Made by a program: the position numbers and the translations under genes
Source of the DNA: a virus
Direction: 5' to 3' (one strand)
Length of the DNA stretch: 45,233 bases
Virus record (IMG/VR): IMGVR_UViG_3300038678_000096
Coordinates: 1 to 45,233 of that record
Part shown: one piece after another, positions 5,973 through 45,233 of the stretch
Numbering within the stretch: the stretch's first letter is position 1
Layout of the letters: the number at the start of each line of letters is the position of its first letter
Notes under the pieces: model-generated
The model's input: only the letters and a program-made list of their open reading frames with translations
Databases searched by the model: none
What the model was told of the DNA's origin: nothing

Positions 5973-6042
5973 GTTGATTCATTATACAGCAATTTAATTA
6001 TTTAATCTTTCGCTTGACGTATAAATATGAATCAACTATGCT
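5973..6042. promoter_or_regulatory. Divergent promoters with symmetric operator half-sites
   Basis: The plus promoter is TTGACG (6014-6019), 17 nt, TATGCT (6037-6042). The minus -10 is TATAAT (5986-5981) with a poor -35. A perfect 10-bp inverted repeat, GTTGATTCAT (5973-5982) and ATGAATCAAC (6027-6036), places one half against each -10, with centres 54 bp apart. This fits a repressor that blocks both promoters, perhaps by looping. Confidence 0.6.
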
Positions 6043-6082
6043 TTGTCATGTACTTACATATTACTTAATTAAAGGAAATAAA

Positions 6083-6598
6083 ATGAATGAATATCAAATT
6101 GCTATGTGGATTGGTGGTGCTATTTTTGCTTTCTGCATCTTGGCTTATATTTTTTGTTGGATTATTCAGTGGGCTTGGGCTTGGGTTGATGATAAAGAAG
6201 CCAGTAACAAAAACTGGTTGTCGTCTAAATTCGAGGGCGCTTCAAAATGGAAATATCCAGTACATAACGAGTATGGTGTCGGTCTTGAGGCTGCAATCAA
6301 AAACAATCACGCGCCTTTTGGGTATGCTAAAGATAAAAAGCACAACAACGGAAAGGTAGGCGGATTAATGGAGGGTGTTGATTACGTTTATTCGCACGAC
6401 GTTAGATGTATTGGTGGTTTTTTTATGTTAGCTGTTATAGCTTTCGCACTACCCATAACCTTACTTTGTGCGCTTAAGGTTTACCCTCTAACGCTTGCTG
6501 TATTGATTATTACTCTAATCGCCTATTTAGCTAGATTTGCTAGACGAAATAAGAAAATGTTTGATGATCATACTAAAGATAAAGACGCGCATAAATAG
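6083..6598 (+). CDS. Membrane protein with three TM segments (171 aa)
   Basis: I place the start at the ATG at 6083, which has SD AAAGGAA. The longer open frame from a TTG at 6014 would begin inside the promoter -35. Hydrophobic segments lie at about residues 5-30, 111-133 and 135-153, with a hydrophilic, lysine-rich domain between the first two and a charged tail (RRNKKMFDDHTKDKD). Family not recognised. It is expressed divergently from the holin-like island and may act at the inner membrane. Confidence 0.7.
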   Translation: MNEYQIAMWIGGAIFAFCILAYIFCWIIQWAWAWVDDKEASNKNWLSSKFEGASKWKYPVHNEYGVGLEAAIKNNHAPFGYAKDKKHNNGKVGGLMEGVDYVYSHDVRCIGGFFMLAVIAFALPITLLCALKVYPLTLAVLIITLIAYLARFARRNKKMFDDHTKDKDAHK

Positions 6599-6606
6599 GA
6601 GTTACC

Positions 6607-6762
6607 ATGGCATTTAAAAAGAAAGAAGTAGGTTTTACACCACATCAACTCAAAGAAATACAATCTTATGCTAATGATAATTATGATGGTAATTTTAACA
6701 TGGCAGTTCGGCAACTGGTAAAAAAAGGCTTGACCAATGACAGCAGACCAAACAACGAATAA
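6607..6762 (+). CDS. Small RHH-like DNA-binding protein (51 aa)
   Basis: This 51-residue protein is clearly related to the 40-residue protein that opens the NAD cassette (16670-16792): both have YANDN-x-x-GNF-x-x-AVR-x-L-x-x-KGL. The predicted strand-helix-helix order fits a ribbon-helix-helix (Arc/MetJ-type) regulator. It has an AGGAG SD and sits third-base-tight in the early operon, overlapping 6737-6907. Its target is unknown; cross-control of the NAD cassette is possible. Confidence 0.7.
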   Translation: MAFKKKEVGFTPHQLKEIQSYANDNYDGNFNMAVRQLVKKGLTNDSRPNNE

Positions 6763-12753: not shown

Positions 12754-15700
12754 TTATTGTACTATTTTAACATTCATAAAGTTAAGTTTAAATTCTTGCA
12801 TTGCCCTTGCTGTTGTTACCGAGTTTCTAAGCATAACATCTTGTACTCTTTTATTATCTTGACGGATATTCTTTAACTCGTTTGCTATTTCTTCCTGTTT
12901 CGCGTCTTGTACATTGCCACCTTCAACTACCGGTGAAAATGGTGAAGCCGGTATTGAAGCACCAGAGCCAGCAGCCAAAGCGGATATTGAATTATTTAAT
13001 GCTATGATAGCATCAGCAACAGATAGTACGCTTGTTTCAATTCCTAATGCTGCGTTTAACAATTCTTCGTTATCGACAAGTATAGCATCAAGTCTTTCAA
13101 GTTCATCTTGATAACCTTGCTCGTGTAAGGCAAAAACACTATTAGCACTTTCAACGAGCATATCAAGCTTGGCTTGTTCTTGTTCGTAATTTAAACTATC
13201 TAATTCTTGCTGTGCATTCCCGAATTTAGTTATAGCTTCATCGATACTTAATACACTGCTATCAATACCAAGTAATGAGTTTAATTGCTCTTGAAGCCCT
13301 AAAATCTGACTTTCAGTTAGTTTGGTTATTGCTGCGATTTGTTCTTCTGAGCTAGACTTGGTTACTTCTAATTGCATATCAATTGCAGCAAGCATTAATT
13401 CACTTTCTGTTAATTGATCACCAGCAAGTAAACCAATCTCTTTTAATCTATTTTGATTTATAGCTTGTTGAACGGCTAAATCTTCAGCGCTTGAAAATCC
13501 ACTAGGGTCAAGCGTAGTCAAGGCGGAAATATTTAATGATGATGCCTTAGAAAAATCTCCAGCCCTGGCGCTTGTTAATGCCGATATCAAGTTAGTACTT
13601 CCTGACAATCCTAATGATGAATTTATAGAGTTAACCAATGACCGCATTGAAGAAGCAGTTGCATTTATAGCTGTCCTTTCATCGTTTAGGGCTGTTAACC
13701 TGGCATTACTTGTTTCTTGTATTAATGCTATTTCTATATTAGAACTGTCTTGTATGCGCTTCATTTCAGCATTAAACGAGTCATTCAATAAAGACTCTGC
13801 ATCAACTAATTTTGATTTTCTTAATTCATTTTCATCATCCAAAGAAATACGTAAATCATCAATCCTTGATATTTCTGCATTATGAGCAACCATGGCAACA
13901 TCAAGGATGGCTCTAGCTCGTTGCTTTTCTAAATTGATTGAATCTTCTAGGATTCTGAATTGATCTCTTGCTGAATCTCTTAATAGAGAAATACGTTCTG
14001 CTTCTATACGCTCAAGTTCGTCAATGTAATCACTTAAGGCTGGGTTTATTTCTAATAGTGTAGCTAATAACTCTTGACCTTCTACCGTCGTTAAGTCAAT
14101 GCCATCAATTAAAGCCCTAAATTCTTCACGACTATCTACCATCGACAAGCCTAAAGAATCAAATACATCAGATATCGATTGTTCAAGGAATTCAAATTGC
14201 TCAACTTCTGTAAAGAAATTCTCAAAAAAGCTATTCGAGGCATCTGTGAACTTATCGAATCCGCCAATTAAATCAATGATATTTTGATTAACTTGTATTA
14301 ACTGTACAGAACTTAACCCCTCAAGAATAACGCCGGTTCTTTCTAAGTGATCATTAAAGAAAGCTTGTTCCTTAGCAACCCTAACCAATGTTTCAAGAGC
14401 GCCTTCACCCAATTGTTGATATTGAGTAATAAAAGGTGCTACAGATTGAACCATTAAGTCGGATTGAGCCGAAAGTATTTCATTTAATCGCTTTTCGGCA
14501 TCCTCTGAGCTTAATTTATCAAAGCTTATAGTGCCTATTCTAAAGACAAAGTCAGACAATGATTTTCGTGTTGATATGCCTAAAATTCCCACGGCCTCAT
14601 TTATAGAATTACCAACGCCTTCAAATATTGCGCTTAGTTCATTAGTAAAAGAACCTGATCGCCTTCCTTTATTTAATCCTTCAAAGCTTTGTTCTAGCGC
14701 TCTTTCAGTTCTATTTTTTATTTCGCTATGGCCAGAATCAACGCTTAATAATTGACGGAATAACCCGAACGAAAGATTTTCAACTTCGTTTAAGTCACTT
14801 CTTAAGCCCCTTAATTCTGAAAGCTGATCTATTAATATATTCTCTACGCCTTCATTAGCTTTGCTTAATGATTCAGAAACTCCACCACCTAAAGCGGTTC
14901 CCTCTGCGCCCGTACCATTACCGCTACCTCCGCCGCCTCCACCACCAAAGACGCTACCAAGCAAGCCAGCCATAATGCCGACCATGGCAGCACCAGCAAC
15001 AAAGCCTATTGGGAATGGCGCGGCAAATGCTGAAGTAATGGCCGTTAATGCATTAGCGCCTTGTTTAGTGGTTTCGTTAGCAACATGAACACCAGTTTCA
15101 GTTGTGCTGGCCGCCATTTTTTGAAATGAAAGTGCTATTTCTGCAATTGTAATGATTTTATTTAATGCGGCAAAAGCCTTGGATGCTGCCGTTTTTTCAT
15201 CAAATAAAGATCCTGTTGCTGAAGATATGGATTTTATACCAGATAATTCAGCGTTAACTTTTTCTTCGTCGAGTTGCTGTTGAAGTTTGATCACTTGAAT
15301 ATTATCGTCACCGAATGCAATCCGAGCCTCTGCAACTTTTTTCTCTAACCTGCCAATTTCCTCAACACGATCCATGTAATCACTAAGTGCGTTAGACATA
15401 TCCCCGAACGCATCAACGATAATCGAGCCAGTTTTAGTCCATGCACCGCCAAAGCTTTCAACATCTTTAGTTAATTGCTGGAATTCTCTAGCGCGTTTTT
15501 TTAATGATAACTCCCTGTCTTTGTCTTGCTTTTTTTGTTGATCTGCTAGGAATTTATCATTTGCTGTGATTTCTCTGATTAATTCAAGATCGTCTTCGTG
15601 CTCAGCTTTTAATAGTTTTATTGTTTTGATTTGTTCCTGTATTGCTGAAGGTATCTCGTTAGTATTGTCTAGGCCAAGCTTTTGAGCTATAGAGTAATTA

Positions 15701-16536
15701 AATGCAGCATCAGCACCATCACGCAAAGCAATAATTTGAGCCTCTAAGCTTTCAGTTATAGATTCTGTGTTATCAACAAAATCTGACCCACCTTCGCTTA
15801 ATTGAGCGAGATTCTTTTCACTTTCTGCTATCCCTAAGTTAACAGCAGTTAAAGAAGCTTTTACTTTTACTAACTCTGCCCTAACTTTAGCGGGATCACC
15901 ACCAAAAATACGCTCAAAAAATCGTCCTGATTGATTTCTTTCAGCGGCAATAAGCTCAGTGCCAAGAATGTTAACTTCTTTTGCTAGCCCTAACATTTCC
16001 TTTCTTTGCTCTTTTATCTTTTCAACTATCGCAGATCTAGCAACGGCTTGTTGTGACTCGGTTAAATCTCTAAAATTCTTGGTTAGTTTAGATATAGAAT
16101 CATCAAGTTCAAGAACACCTTTAGTAGCACTTAACAATGAAGGAAGAAACATACCGACTAATGAGGCGGTAATACCAGCAATCGCACCAAGCAACGGAGC
16201 GCCAAGTACGAAACCTAAATCGGCACTTTGTTGAGATAGTGCAAGCATGACGCCTTGACCACCTTGAACCTGTCCGATAAATTGTTGAAATTGAATCCCT
16301 GCTTGACCTGAAGCGCGGCCAAAACCAGCCATTTTTTTCTGAGCCTTTACTTGTGCTGAGGCGGTTTTTCCGATGGATTTCTCAAGAGAATCGAAATCAT
16401 CTTTTATCTTCTTTGTTGATTTATCAATTGATTGCTCAGTCTTCTTGCCAGTCGCAGCAAATGAGTCTAAAGCCTTTTCACCCTTCTTTAATGGTTGTGT
16501 GTCTACTGCAAAGCCCAATTTCGCGATATCGCTCAT
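12754..16536 (-). CDS. Tail length tape measure protein (1260 aa)
   Basis: This is the largest gene of the window. The N-terminus (about 1-60) has the AKLGFAVDTQPLKKGEKALD start typical of lambda-type tape measure proteins. A hydrophobic, glycine-rich segment at about 110-140 and another at about 500-540 (ending in a run of six Gly) are membrane-active stretches, separated and followed by long coiled coils. It sets tail length and is ejected with the DNA. In family phages it sits directly after the G/GT chaperone genes; here a 2.5-kb plus-strand cassette separates them. Confidence 0.93.
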   Translation of the reverse strand: MSDIAKLGFAVDTQPLKKGEKALDSFAATGKKTEQSIDKSTKKIKDDFDSLEKSIGKTASAQVKAQKKMAGFGRASGQAGIQFQQFIGQVQGGQGVMLALSQQSADLGFVLGAPLLGAIAGITASLVGMFLPSLLSATKGVLELDDSISKLTKNFRDLTESQQAVARSAIVEKIKEQRKEMLGLAKEVNILGTELIAAERNQSGRFFERIFGGDPAKVRAELVKVKASLTAVNLGIAESEKNLAQLSEGGSDFVDNTESITESLEAQIIALRDGADAAFNYSIAQKLGLDNTNEIPSAIQEQIKTIKLLKAEHEDDLELIREITANDKFLADQQKKQDKDRELSLKKRAREFQQLTKDVESFGGAWTKTGSIIVDAFGDMSNALSDYMDRVEEIGRLEKKVAEARIAFGDDNIQVIKLQQQLDEEKVNAELSGIKSISSATGSLFDEKTAASKAFAALNKIITIAEIALSFQKMAASTTETGVHVANETTKQGANALTAITSAFAAPFPIGFVAGAAMVGIMAGLLGSVFGGGGGGGSGNGTGAEGTALGGGVSESLSKANEGVENILIDQLSELRGLRSDLNEVENLSFGLFRQLLSVDSGHSEIKNRTERALEQSFEGLNKGRRSGSFTNELSAIFEGVGNSINEAVGILGISTRKSLSDFVFRIGTISFDKLSSEDAEKRLNEILSAQSDLMVQSVAPFITQYQQLGEGALETLVRVAKEQAFFNDHLERTGVILEGLSSVQLIQVNQNIIDLIGGFDKFTDASNSFFENFFTEVEQFEFLEQSISDVFDSLGLSMVDSREEFRALIDGIDLTTVEGQELLATLLEINPALSDYIDELERIEAERISLLRDSARDQFRILEDSINLEKQRARAILDVAMVAHNAEISRIDDLRISLDDENELRKSKLVDAESLLNDSFNAEMKRIQDSSNIEIALIQETSNARLTALNDERTAINATASSMRSLVNSINSSLGLSGSTNLISALTSARAGDFSKASSLNISALTTLDPSGFSSAEDLAVQQAINQNRLKEIGLLAGDQLTESELMLAAIDMQLEVTKSSSEEQIAAITKLTESQILGLQEQLNSLLGIDSSVLSIDEAITKFGNAQQELDSLNYEQEQAKLDMLVESANSVFALHEQGYQDELERLDAILVDNEELLNAALGIETSVLSVADAIIALNNSISALAAGSGASIPASPFSPVVEGGNVQDAKQEEIANELKNIRQDNKRVQDVMLRNSVTTARAMQEFKLNFMNVKIVQ

Positions 16537-16611: not shown

Positions 16612-16639
16612 TTGACTTAGTATATGCCGAGTATATACT
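16612..16639 (+). promoter_or_regulatory. Promoter and operator of the NAD cassette
   Basis: TTGACT (16612-16617), a 16-nt spacer and TATACT (16634-16639) form a good promoter. The -10 lies inside the perfect palindrome AGTATATACT (16630-16639), and a related half-site TAGTATAT is at 16618-16625. This suits autoregulation by the RHH-like protein encoded immediately downstream. Confidence 0.65.
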
Positions 16640-16669
16640 ATATGTATATCTTAAACATAAGGATAGCAA

Positions 16670-16792
16670 ATGAAGATACTGATTGAGTTTAAAGATTTAC
16701 ACGATAAAGTTAAAAAATATGCTAATGATAATTGCGAAGGTAATTTTTCTTTGGCTGTTAGAGAGTTAATTAGAAAAGGACTATCTAAATGA
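16670..16792 (+). CDS. RHH-like regulator of the NAD cassette (40 aa)
   Basis: This 40-residue ORF has SD AAGGAT and a four-base ATGA overlap with the PRPP-synthetase-like gene. A strand (KILIEF) and two helices (KDLHDKVKKYANDN; LAVRELIRKGL) match a ribbon-helix-helix layout. It is a paralogue of 6607-6762, sharing YANDN-x-x-GNF-x-x-AVR-x-L-x-x-KGL. It probably binds the palindrome over its own -10 box and so controls the two enzyme genes. Confidence 0.7.
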   Translation: MKILIEFKDLHDKVKKYANDNCEGNFSLAVRELIRKGLSK

Positions 16793-17613
16793 GTATTTAT
16801 ATATTAAGTGGCTTTGATAGGTTTGATGTTGATTTTATAAAGTTCTCTGATGGTGCTGAAATATGCGAGTTAAAGATATTTCCAAACAATAAAGCAAATA
16901 TCGTTTTAGATGTTGATAACTGTAATGTTGATTTGGTTAGGCTTATGCTTGTTAAGGATGCACTAGATAATTTAGGTGTTGAACACATAACGTTAACTAT
17001 GTCTTACATTCCAAACGCAAGAGCAGACAGACGATTTAGTAAGAATCAATCGCAATCTTTAAAGGTTTTTTGCAATGTCATTAACTCGTTAAATTTCAAA
17101 GAAGTTCATGTTAGCGATCCGCACTCTGATGTTTCAACTGCGTTATTGAATAACGTTAAGGTTAACGATCAAGTTAACTGTTTCATGCAGAAAAAACCAC
17201 AAATAGATAAAATATCTAATGACTATGTTTTTTGCTCTCCTGACTTGGGGGCCACAAAGAAAACATTCGATCTATCAATGAAAACAGGTATCGATTTAAT
17301 TCAAGCAGTTAAAATCAGAGATATTAAAACCGGAAATATCATTAAATGTGATGCTCAATGTGAAAACCTAAAAGGTAAGGACGTTGTTATTGTTGATGAT
17401 ATCGCTGATGGCGGAGCGTCTTTTATTTATCTTGCAGAAAAGTTAAAAGCTAAAGGCGCGGGTAAAATTATATTATTTGTTACACACGGTATTTTTTCAA
17501 AAGGCTTGGCGCCGTTAGTAGGTAAAGTTGATTATATATTCACGTATAACCTAATGGAAAAATTTATAAACAATCGAGATATAGAATTATTTAACAATAA
17601 ACAAGGGGAATAG
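16789..17613 (+). CDS. Ribose-phosphate pyrophosphokinase-like enzyme (274 aa), candidate ADPR-PP synthetase
   Basis: This is a PRPP-synthetase homologue with PNARADRR (75-82, matching the family's ARQDRK region), SDPHSD (109-114, catalytic metal region), SPDLGATKK (150-158) and the PRPP loop VDDIADGGAS (202-211). It is shorter (274) than bacterial Prs (about 315). Prs transfers pyrophosphate from ATP to ribose-5-phosphate. In phage NARP1-type systems a homologue acts on ADP-ribose to give ADPR-pyrophosphate. The pairing with a NAMPT homologue two bases downstream, with no NMN adenylyltransferase in the genome, makes the second role attractive but unproven. Confidence 0.9.
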   Translation: MSIYILSGFDRFDVDFIKFSDGAEICELKIFPNNKANIVLDVDNCNVDLVRLMLVKDALDNLGVEHITLTMSYIPNARADRRFSKNQSQSLKVFCNVINSLNFKEVHVSDPHSDVSTALLNNVKVNDQVNCFMQKKPQIDKISNDYVFCSPDLGATKKTFDLSMKTGIDLIQAVKIRDIKTGNIIKCDAQCENLKGKDVVIVDDIADGGASFIYLAEKLKAKGAGKIILFVTHGIFSKGLAPLVGKVDYIFTYNLMEKFINNRDIELFNNKQGE

Positions 17614-17614
17614 A

Positions 17615-19090
17615 ATGGAGTTTTTAGCACCGCTAATGAAAGATGCATACAAGGTATTTCACAAATCAGCATACAAGCCAGGAGTTACACATGTTTATAG
17701 TAACTTCACAAATAGATTTAATACTCACAGCAACATGCCAAACAATGCAGAGGTTTTATTTGTTGGCTTACAGTATTTTATTTTAGATGTATTAATAGAA
17801 AGATGGAATGATACATTTTTCAATGTTGATAAAGATATTGCTGTAAATGAATATTCAAGAGTTGTTAATGCAATGTTGGGTAAGGTTATTGCTGTTGATC
17901 ACATTGAAGCGCTGCACGACCTTCAGTATTTACCATTAGAAATTAAAGCAGTACCAGAGGGTACATTAGTTCCTTATGGCGTGCCTAGCCTAAGTATTGT
18001 CAATACTGTATCTGGTTTCGGCTGGTTAACAAATATGATTGAAACTGTTATGAGTGCGGAAATTTGGCCTGTATGCACAAGCGCAACAACGGCATTAGCT
18101 TATCGTAAGCGATTCGAACAAGAGTCATCACTTGATAAGGATATGATCCCTTTTATGGGTCATGATTTTAGCTATCGTGGAATGTTTGGTACTCAAGCTG
18201 CTGCAATGTCTGGATTCGGTCATTTATGCTCGTTTGCTGGTTCTGATGTTATTCCCGCGGCATTATTTGCTGAAAAGTATTACGGAGCAAAGATTGATAA
18301 AGAACTTGTGTTTGCTTCTGTTGATGCTACTGAACACAGCGTTCAATGCTCATATGGTAATGATGGTGAGTTAGATTCGTTATTACATTTGATAACCAAC
18401 GTTACACCAACAGGAATTATTTCTATAGTTTCTGATACGTGGGACTTCTGGAAACTTGTAGGCGAATATTTGCCAGCAATAAAAGACACCATCATGAATC
18501 GTGAAGGTACGGTTGTCATTCGTCCAGATAGCGGTGATCCTGTTGATATTTTATGTGGCATATCATCAAATGATTCAGCTAAATACTTACAAGCAACTGA
18601 ATTAGAGCGTAAAGGTTTGATTGAATGCTTATGGGATATCTTCGGCGGCACAGAAAAAAATGGACTTAAGTTATTAGATAGTCATATTGGCGCTATTTAT
18701 GGTGATAGCATTACACTAGAACGTCAAGATTTGATTATTAACAAATTAGTAGCTAAAGGATTTGTTCCTAACGTTGTGCTCGGTATTGGCTCTTATACTT
18801 ACCAGTATGTAACTCGTGATACCCATGGTTCAGCTATGAAAGCTACAGATATTCAATTTGGCGCAGGTAATCACCAGCCAATATTTAAAGATCCGAAAAC
18901 TGATAGTAGTAAAAAATCAGCTAAAGGATTATTAAGAGTTTGCAGGAATGCCGATGAATCTTTGTACTTAATGGATTCTGTCCATCCTGATGATGAAGGC
19001 GGTGAATTAAAAACTGTATTTAAAGACGGTAAATTAACACGTAAAACTAGCCTTAATAAAATACGTAAATTAATTAACGATTCGATATAA
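17615..19090 (+). CDS. nadV: Nicotinamide phosphoribosyltransferase family enzyme (491 aa), candidate nicotinamide ADPR transferase
   Basis: This is a full-length NAMPT/NadV homologue: HDFSYRG (183-189, nicotinamide site), TEHS (239-242) with His241 matching the catalytic histidine of NAMPT, RPDSGDP (303-309), GDSI and GIGSYTYQYVTRD. NAMPT joins nicotinamide and PRPP to make NMN. In NARP1 the homologue joins nicotinamide to ADPR-PP, giving NAD+ directly. It ends 28 nt before a strong terminator. The symbol is for the family; which of the two reactions it performs cannot be decided by reading. It acts in the cytoplasm. Confidence 0.93.
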   Translation: MEFLAPLMKDAYKVFHKSAYKPGVTHVYSNFTNRFNTHSNMPNNAEVLFVGLQYFILDVLIERWNDTFFNVDKDIAVNEYSRVVNAMLGKVIAVDHIEALHDLQYLPLEIKAVPEGTLVPYGVPSLSIVNTVSGFGWLTNMIETVMSAEIWPVCTSATTALAYRKRFEQESSLDKDMIPFMGHDFSYRGMFGTQAAAMSGFGHLCSFAGSDVIPAALFAEKYYGAKIDKELVFASVDATEHSVQCSYGNDGELDSLLHLITNVTPTGIISIVSDTWDFWKLVGEYLPAIKDTIMNREGTVVIRPDSGDPVDILCGISSNDSAKYLQATELERKGLIECLWDIFGGTEKNGLKLLDSHIGAIYGDSITLERQDLIINKLVAKGFVPNVVLGIGSYTYQYVTRDTHGSAMKATDIQFGAGNHQPIFKDPKTDSSKKSAKGLLRVCRNADESLYLMDSVHPDDEGGELKTVFKDGKLTRKTSLNKIRKLINDSI

Positions 19091-19117
19091 TAAATAATTT
19101 ATAATCTTGGTTAATAA

Positions 19118-19142
19118 AAAAGGGCTTGAATTAAGCCCTTTT
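19118..19142. terminator. Bidirectional intrinsic terminator after the NAD cassette
   Basis: AAAAGGGCTT and AAGCCCTTTT form a 10-bp stem with a 5-nt loop, with A and T tracts on both sides. It closes the plus-strand cassette and overlaps the stop codon of the minus-strand chaperone gene 19141-19557. Confidence 0.85.
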
Positions 19143-19557
19143 ATTTTACCTTTAATTTTGTTTCGAATGACTCCCATTGACGAGCTACTCTATCACGCAT
19201 TTCCTGAAGCGCATCTTCTTCATCAATTCCTTCTTGATAAGGGGGCGGACAACCAAGCTTTTTACCCTTAGACAACATGTAACAATAAGCCCTACTCATT
19301 TTGATGATTTGTTCAGACTCCCAGCCGTTAAGCGGATAACCAGAGCCATTACAAAATGAATTAACTTCAGACCATGTTAAAGGTATTGCACCCATTGAAC
19401 CATTCAAACAAAATCCAGATAACTCGAAACACAAAGATATATAACCATCAATTTCAGGTAAGTGTTTTGCTGGATGTCCATCAGCTAATGTATTTACTCT
19501 GCTTTTCGGGTTTTCATCTTTATCGTTTCGCTTTGGCGCAGCATGAAGCCACGCCAA
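19141..19557 (-). CDS. Tail assembly chaperone T-frame (GT partner, 138 aa)
   Basis: The start LAWLHAAPKRND and the C-terminal CPPPYQEGIDEEDALQEM are typical of the T part of lambda-type gpGT tail chaperones. The computed start is a TTG, but coding-like sequence in this frame (QIGFNEQLSENLSLYAKQ) runs upstream to 19611 with no start codon, overlapping the end of the G gene. This implies a -1 frameshift from 19587-20009, although I see no canonical slippery heptamer. It would help load the tail tube onto the tape measure protein. Confidence 0.75.
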   Translation of the reverse strand: MAWLHAAPKRNDKDENPKSRVNTLADGHPAKHLPEIDGYISLCFELSGFCLNGSMGAIPLTWSEVNSFCNGSGYPLNGWESEQIIKMSRAYCYMLSKGKKLGCPPPYQEGIDEEDALQEMRDRVARQWESFETKLKVK

Positions 19558-42695: not shown

Positions 42696-43136
42696 TCAAA
42701 TAAATTTTTCTTTCTCTATATCGTATACGTGAACCTTACCACCGGAATATAAATCCCTTGTCATTGCGTACTCTACAGCCTCTTTTGCTGTCTTACCTAA
42801 ATCAACAGCAGCCATAGCAAACCAGCCACCAGATCCTACAGACTCGTTACAAGGTAATTCATCAAGCTTATAAACACCATCCTCATTACATACTTTGTAT
42901 GCGATGCCATCACGAACAACGATTCCACCACATTCAACATTTTCAGGAGCGTTCGCGTTATGAGTAAATGTATCAATAAATATTGATACATCGGATTTGC
43001 TTCCACAGACAAACCAAACATCACCATTAACAGTGCGGTACTTTATCGCATCATCTGTAAATAATGTTCCTCCGCCAGTTTCTCTACTATCACACGCTAC
43101 TTGCTTGTTCTTGTGGTCATATACTATTGTTGTCAT
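42696..43136 (-). CDS. Proteasome-like NTN hydrolase (HslV-like, 146 aa)
   Basis: The start MTTIVYDHKNKQVACDSR is typical of proteasome/HslV-type beta subunits: the initiator Met is removed, leaving Thr2 as the nucleophile, with the DSR region and Lys32 downstream. The VGSGGWFAMAAVDLGKTAKE block (100-119) and the SGGKVHVYDIE end are likewise family features. Members occur in many phages but have no known target. No ATPase partner is encoded here. Length 146 is shorter than HslV (about 175). Likely cytoplasmic. Confidence 0.8.
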   Translation of the reverse strand: MTTIVYDHKNKQVACDSRETGGGTLFTDDAIKYRTVNGDVWFVCGSKSDVSIFIDTFTHNANAPENVECGGIVVRDGIAYKVCNEDGVYKLDELPCNESVGSGGWFAMAAVDLGKTAKEAVEYAMTRDLYSGGKVHVYDIEKEKFI

Positions 43137-44981: not shown

Positions 44982-45191
44982 TTAAAATAAAGTAACTGGC
45001 TTTTTAGGGAATAGCACAAAGCTTTTTATCTCTGTCAATTCCTCATCAAATTTCACAGCAGTACCATTCACTATAACTGCTCTATTCATGCACCAGCGCT
45101 TTAACTCGCTATTACTAGCCTTTCCTGTTCGCTCTCTACTCATGAAAAAGCAAACCTTATTTAATTCGATTAAAAACTTCCAAGCTTTCAT
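44982..45191 (-). CDS. Conserved phage protein, S4-like (69 aa), spanning the circular join
   Basis: The pattern WKFLIELNKVCFFMSRERTG, then KASNSELKRWCMNRAVIVNG and VKFDEELTEIKSFVLFPKKP is a widespread short phage protein with an S4-like look (a small RNA-binding alpha/beta domain). Its first part lies in the 127-bp terminal repeat, so bases 1-85 at the other end carry a partial copy. In the closed circle its start is joined to the stop of 85-339 by J1 (TAATG). Role unknown. Confidence 0.72.
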   Translation of the reverse strand: MKAWKFLIELNKVCFFMSRERTGKASNSELKRWCMNRAVIVNGTAVKFDEELTEIKSFVLFPKKPVTLF

Positions 45192-45233
45192 TAGTTCTTT
45201 ACTCCTTGTTCTAGTTTATATGTGACAACACAA
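45107..45233. repeat. Right copy of 127-bp terminal direct repeat
   Basis: This is identical to 1-127 and represents either the overlap of a circular assembly or a terminal redundancy of the phage genome. Confidence 0.97.

Follow-up and report, generated by a model that had tools for sequence, protein, structure and literature searches.

What does a compact set of genes read from one strand do for a phage when it lies among late tail genes read from the other, and how is it controlled there? The locus belongs to what we call the window, the whole 45,233-nucleotide stretch of viral DNA analysed here. With the same 127 bp repeated directly at both its ends (1-127 and 45107-45233), the window probably represents a whole genome, with a map of about 45.1 kb. 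The phage is small and aquatic, and its terminase, 55-59% identical to Vibrio phage terminases, suggests a gammaproteobacterial, probably marine host. Elsewhere in this small genome, positions 42696-43136 encode a protein resembling the HslV peptidase family (phrog_1040, E=6e-30). The cassette of interest spans 16612-19142 and consists of a promoter, an open reading frame (ORF) of the ribbon-helix-helix (RHH) type, adps, namat and a terminator, on the strand opposite to the late tail genes:

12754-16536, minus strand: flanking late tape measure gene, 1260 aa (tape-measure matches, with a relative in contig L190)
16612-16639, plus strand: sigma-70-type promoter of the cassette, TTGACT-16-TATACT, 10 of 12 consensus positions matched
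16618-16640, no strand assigned: candidate RHH operator, inverted repeat TAGTATAT / ATATACTA, over the spacer and the -10
16670-16792, plus strand: 40-aa RHH ORF, probable autorepressor (phrog_4738, AlphaFold model, ArtA match, homologous loci)
16789-17613, plus strand: adps (NrsA type), 274 aa, predicted ADP-ribose pyrophosphate synthetase (phrog_619, diagnostic positions, tree, fold)
17615-19090, plus strand: namat (NrsB type), 491 aa, predicted nicotinamide ADP-ribose transferase (phrog_448, 9w5x, signature, tree)
19118-19142, no strand assigned: intrinsic terminator, symmetric 11-bp stem then T (terminator scan; fold z -3.15)
19141-19557, minus strand: flanking gene at the tail-assembly-chaperone position (phrog_18915, function unknown; adjoins the tape measure gene in contig L192)

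The stop codon of the RHH gene and the ATG of adps overlap by four bases (ATGA), and a single base (17614) separates adps from namat; thus, the three genes form a tightly packed operon. A preliminary description of this DNA had placed the two enzyme genes two bases apart, which is right as to their close adjacency and off by one as to the gap. Its coordinates fit exactly, from the promoter at one end to the terminator at the other. The other elements that it listed, a promoter, an RHH-like regulator and a terminator, which it called bidirectional, are all found here, and both flanking genes lie on the strand opposite to the cassette, as it stated. The terminator is common to the end of the cassette and to the end of the leftward tail gene at 19141-19557. 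It was scored by the scan on the plus strand only, and leftward termination is plausible from the symmetry of its stem. A nucleotide search with the cassette against the phage collection gave no match.

The 491-aa NAMPT-like protein matches phrog_448 in PHROGs (E=7e-181) and 9w5x in the PDB (E=3e-128), human NAMPT coming at about 1e-50. Judged by the residue numbering of the paper (D13, Y15, R40, F189, D215, R306, F392 and Y396, each present at its place in the chain), 9w5x would be the Namat of SpbetaL1. Namat is defined by the signature GSXPhi1XPhi2XPhi3TRD, in which the aromatics at the third and seventh positions contact adenine (Lan et al., PMC12774641). The window protein carries this signature as GSYTYQYVTRD, with Y394 and Y398 as its aromatic pair. 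We aligned 158 sequences, of which 131 have an Adps-like gene in the fetched locus and 19 are NAMPT/NadV controls (human, phages nt-1, RB43 and Moby, Pasteurellaceae). All 131 Adps-linked Namats have an aromatic residue at the third position and 124 of them have Y, F or H at the seventh, whereas the commonest residues in the 19 controls are Q, G or L at the third and R or K at the seventh. Position 362 is S or A in nearly all Namats and G in NadV; the window has S365. The catalytic core is kept as well (D10, Y12, F185, R188, D211, R303, D305, G363, D364, R401, D402). The one departure concerns the third position of the SCL loop, where the usual adenine-stacking R or K is replaced by T37, as in 5 of the 131 Adps-linked Namats, followed by H38. 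A Namat would be expected to have R, K or Y at this position or a stacking residue after it. The corresponding pair is K-Y in ICP1 and K-H in Slicky01, and stacking can pass to the residue after the loop position if K or Y is present (PMC12774641), so that H38 is a plausible stand-in. In the tree, the protein belongs to a clade with ICP1 NrsB, PhAER-3 and Slicky01 (support 100/100). Taken together, these features identify the 491-aa protein, at the level of sequence, as a Namat.

Where a fetched locus has a signature-bearing Namat, an Adps-like gene is almost always there as well, and none was found among the fetched loci beside Pasteurellaceae NadV or the NAMPT/NadV of nt-1, RB43 or Moby. Several Pasteurellaceae NadV (L144, L145, L150, L153, L158, L160), mostly GAQTYQRNTRD and without an Adps neighbour, are nested inside the Namat-type clade (91/89, 98/97), a placement that would fit the return of an ADPR-PP enzyme to the use of PRPP. 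A divergent Namat-like group (L021-L024, L036, L037) has its Adps-like gene downstream rather than upstream and does not match the form of the signature that was searched.

The 274-aa PRPP-synthetase-like protein matches phrog_619 (E=9e-74) and shares 46.8% identity with ICP1 NrsA and 55% with the Adps of two other viral contigs, L008 (IMGVR_UViG_3300023223_000295) and L009. The model predicted for it (pLDDT 93) shows, as expected, a PRPP-synthetase fold, which alone cannot separate the use of ADP-ribose from that of ribose-5-phosphate. A sequence search found no solved Adps structure. At 21 alignment columns the majority residue of Namat-linked Adps differs from that of five cellular Prs; of these, the window protein is Adps-type at 18, Prs-type at one and neither at two. 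In a maximum-likelihood tree the Prs set falls outside all Adps on a branch of length 3.18 (100/100), and the window protein lies among Namat-linked Adps, in the same major clade as NrsA. On these grounds it is best assigned as an Adps. A scan of viral contigs with Adps-only peptide patterns, which were probably too specific, returned no relative.

The enzyme pair is thus of the NARP1 type on every sequence test run except the loop position T37, and would be a further member of this known kind of pair, which rebuilds NAD+ once a bacterium has destroyed its own supply to halt an infection. The preliminary description had read it in the same way and is borne out by the Namat signature, the grouping with ICP1 NrsB and the placement of Adps with Namat-linked Adps. 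The phylogenetic check it proposed shows no clustering with ordinary Prs or NadV, the former being set apart by the long branch. The nearest experimentally tested relative of the window Namat, 69.5% identical and of the same clade, is NrsB of the Vibrio phage ICP1, whose nrsAB (ORF228/ORF229) comprises the two enzymes in the same order. ICP1 differs in being a large virulent phage, in having nrsA and nrsB annotated 33 bp apart, and in that no homologue of the window RHH protein was found at its locus. The NARP1 of SpbetaL1 and Bas63 (Adps and Namat) are more distant, the window Namat being on the ICP1 branch, although SpbetaL1 Namat shares the signature and the catalytic residues; no RHH leader was found in their published descriptions.

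Could the two enzymes instead be an ordinary salvage pair, Prs making PRPP, NadV making NMN and a host adenylyltransferase completing NAD+ for replication rather than for counter-defence? Both proteins do keep the folds or families of their parents, and published Namat also makes NMN from nicotinamide and PRPP in vitro (PMC12774641). We nevertheless regard this explanation as improbable given that the aromatic pair and the S/A at position 362 are absent from the 19 NAMPT/NadV controls, that both proteins are placed with NARP1 members in the trees and that Adps-type residues prevail at the diagnostic positions. The preliminary description had also argued for direct NAD+ formation from a missing NMN adenylyltransferase. 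None is visible indeed, neither as an HxGH-type motif in window ORFs of at least 90 aa nor in the PHROGs scans, but this is a weak test and weak evidence because hosts have their own enzyme; the same caution applies to the difference from phage Moby, whose pathway pairs NAMPT with an NMN adenylyltransferase, none being visibly linked in the window.

The 40-aa protein matches a transcriptional repressor family, phrog_4738 (E=0.005), and no Pfam family. AlphaFold predicts (pLDDT 89) a 9-residue coil leader followed by helices at 10-21 and 26-39, and the best PDB fold match is the RHH regulator ArtA, with a probability of 0.99 but E=0.11. The modelled fold is thus RHH-like with helices in the right places; the RHH strand would form only in the dimer. 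ArtA, from plasmid pSK41, is a transfer regulator, longer than the 40-aa protein and without NAD+ genes. It represses its own and other promoters, in which its binding sites are located (PMC6540685). With a three-sequence profile, homologues of the 40-aa protein were detected in 21 viral contigs, that of L008 included, with the conserved core EGNFSxAVRQLxKKGL; RHH-bearing isolates include Vibrio phage 1.090.B.

The candidate operator is an exact inverted repeat, TAGTATAT-N7-ATATACTA, and GTATAT additionally repeats at 11 bp. The promoter form TTGAC-N-TATRCT occurs at only two sites in the window, one upstream of each of its two RHH ORFs. The E values for phrog_448 and phrog_619 show that the cassette is not due to chance. 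Upstream of RHH genes in the wider family, the promoter TTG(A/C)(C/T)-N14-19-TAT(A/G)(C/T)T was found at 11/20 loci (0.3 in shuffles) and the operator-like GTATATACT...ATATC at 5/20 (0.01 in shuffles), counts that are descriptive since the patterns were drawn up after viewing the sequences and the loci are related. We also considered the perfect palindrome AGTATATACT as a regulon mark in the window and rejected it, with one exact site and a one-mismatch count at the level of chance. Repression of its own promoter is the most likely role of the RHH protein, with activation as a possible alternative.

The second RHH gene of the window, found through L008, and its promoter are located as follows:

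6014-6042, plus strand: promoter upstream of the second RHH gene, TTGACG-17-TATGCT, resembling the promoters of RHH loci L204, L211 and L212
6607-6762, plus strand: second, paralogous RHH gene of the presumed early region, sharing 43% identity with its counterpart in the cassette

This promoter is followed by NinB and NinG genes, which in lambda-like phages belong to an early region. The regulator, described at first as dedicated to the cassette, is therefore not private to it, being one of two paralogues in the window and part of a wider phage family. The pair suggests a small regulon within the phage, and with a second RHH gene behind the same promoter form in the presumed early region, early expression would be the simplest reading for the cassette. 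The RHH protein might, rather than being the cassette's own repressor, be a general early regulator, the cassette having captured an early promoter unit and both paralogues acting at both promoters. Besides the paralogous unit at 6014-6762, family members leading genes in replication or recombination-type regions of several phages speak for this. The repeat sequences differ between the two promoters, however, and the specificity of proteins so far apart in sequence may have diverged; we hold this to be a serious possibility, though a rather doubtful one. Many small RHH proteins are antitoxins, so the RHH gene could also act like the antitoxin in a module for addiction or superinfection, with the enzymes as passengers. 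This is very improbable: no toxin-like gene follows the RHH gene, the same RHH head precedes different cargo in other phages, and the enzymes are intact with conserved active sites.

We favour a NARP1 counter-defence moron with RHH autorepression and an early pulse, which as a whole we consider probable, with good confidence. The sequence comparisons show its genes and their orthology, the Namat signature, the RHH-like fold, the conservation of the promoter and the variability of the site; its substrate preference, DNA binding, timing and protection are what we infer. Adps would spend ATP to add pyrophosphate to the ADP-ribose that a NADase defence of the host leaves behind. Namat would then couple nicotinamide to this ADPR-PP and so give NAD+ directly, the ADPR-PP chemistry itself being predicted. 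The RHH protein, once made, would bind the repeats over the spacer and the -10 of its own promoter and repress RHH-adps-namat, leaving an early pulse of the cassette independent of the late tail genes on the opposite strand. In V. cholerae, ICP1 depends on nrsAB to defeat the NADase defence Nezha, and the operon raises NAD+ while infection proceeds; in the absence of Nezha it is costly to the phage, and the authors did not succeed in cloning it intact (PMC11559045). These experiments support the counter-defence reading. Such a cost gives a reason for a repressor, and early, limited expression under RHH repression would fit it, as repression would spare the phage the full cost of the cassette in hosts without a NADase. 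No integrase was seen in the window ORFs scanned, many of which have no annotation, and a role in prophage conversion is thus not favoured. If an RHH-regulated NARP1 operates in a 45-kb phage, it would show how a costly counter-defence is held in check and expressed independently of the late genes around it.

The same order, RHH-adps-namat, is present in L008, whose RHH, Adps and Namat are 45-46%, 55% and 60% identical to those of the window. There, the cassette shares its strand with the head and tail genes around it, and the Namat is of a different clade. The RHH-led, presumably regulated form of NARP1, which we did not find in published NARP1 descriptions, occurs in two different phage contexts. 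Among the other NARP1 loci, an RHH homologue was found next to that of L008 only; in L009, a divergent 47-aa ORF without a Pfam match, RHH-looking, lies upstream of adps. The Adps of L008 and L009 groups with those of the window and ICP1 (the exact sister grouping supported by 95/77 only), while their Namat groups with chromosomal sequences of Pseudoalteromonas, Shewanella and Reinekea, a discordance that points to exchange where adps meets namat.

In about 20 other phage contigs the RHH family leads diverse genes, often behind a TTGACT...TATACT promoter. Besides NARP1 (the window and L008), the cargo includes an AP2-domain protein (L208), a T5orf172 protein (L197) and a DUF1376 protein (L193), as well as proteins without a Pfam match (L195 and L200-L202). 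In L201 and L202, just as in the window, the genes on either side of the RHH unit are read from the opposite strand. The RHH gene and its operator-bearing promoter may thus be a portable head for interchangeable accessory cargo, giving early, self-limiting expression inside late modules, an idea that we put forward tentatively and rate a little short of even. If it holds, the unknown genes behind the head, for example in L200, L201, L202 and L213, become candidates for new counter-defence functions, and RHH-adps would have been joined to different namat partners by recombination. The head is a simple bait for further accessory, possibly counter-defence, genes.

Finally, the site itself, between the tape measure gene and the gene at the chaperone position, had appeared unusual in the preliminary description; relatives hold different cargo there. 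In L192 the same junction is nearly empty, with 56 bases between the two genes. In L190, a 45-kb contig whose tape measure is 61% identical, and in L191, other opposite-strand genes occupy it, one of HNH type among them; no Namat was found in these two contigs. This tail-module junction therefore reads, by comparison of these contigs, as a cargo hotspot rather than a one-off insertion. The cargo in L190 (4025-5866) and L191 (3880-5268) is mostly of unknown function, Pfam giving a weak AP2 match in the former and no family in the latter. In the window, leftward late transcription meets the symmetric terminator at the end of the cassette before it reaches the tape measure gene; to transcribe that gene, the phage would need read-through by antitermination or a local promoter, either of which would solve the problem.
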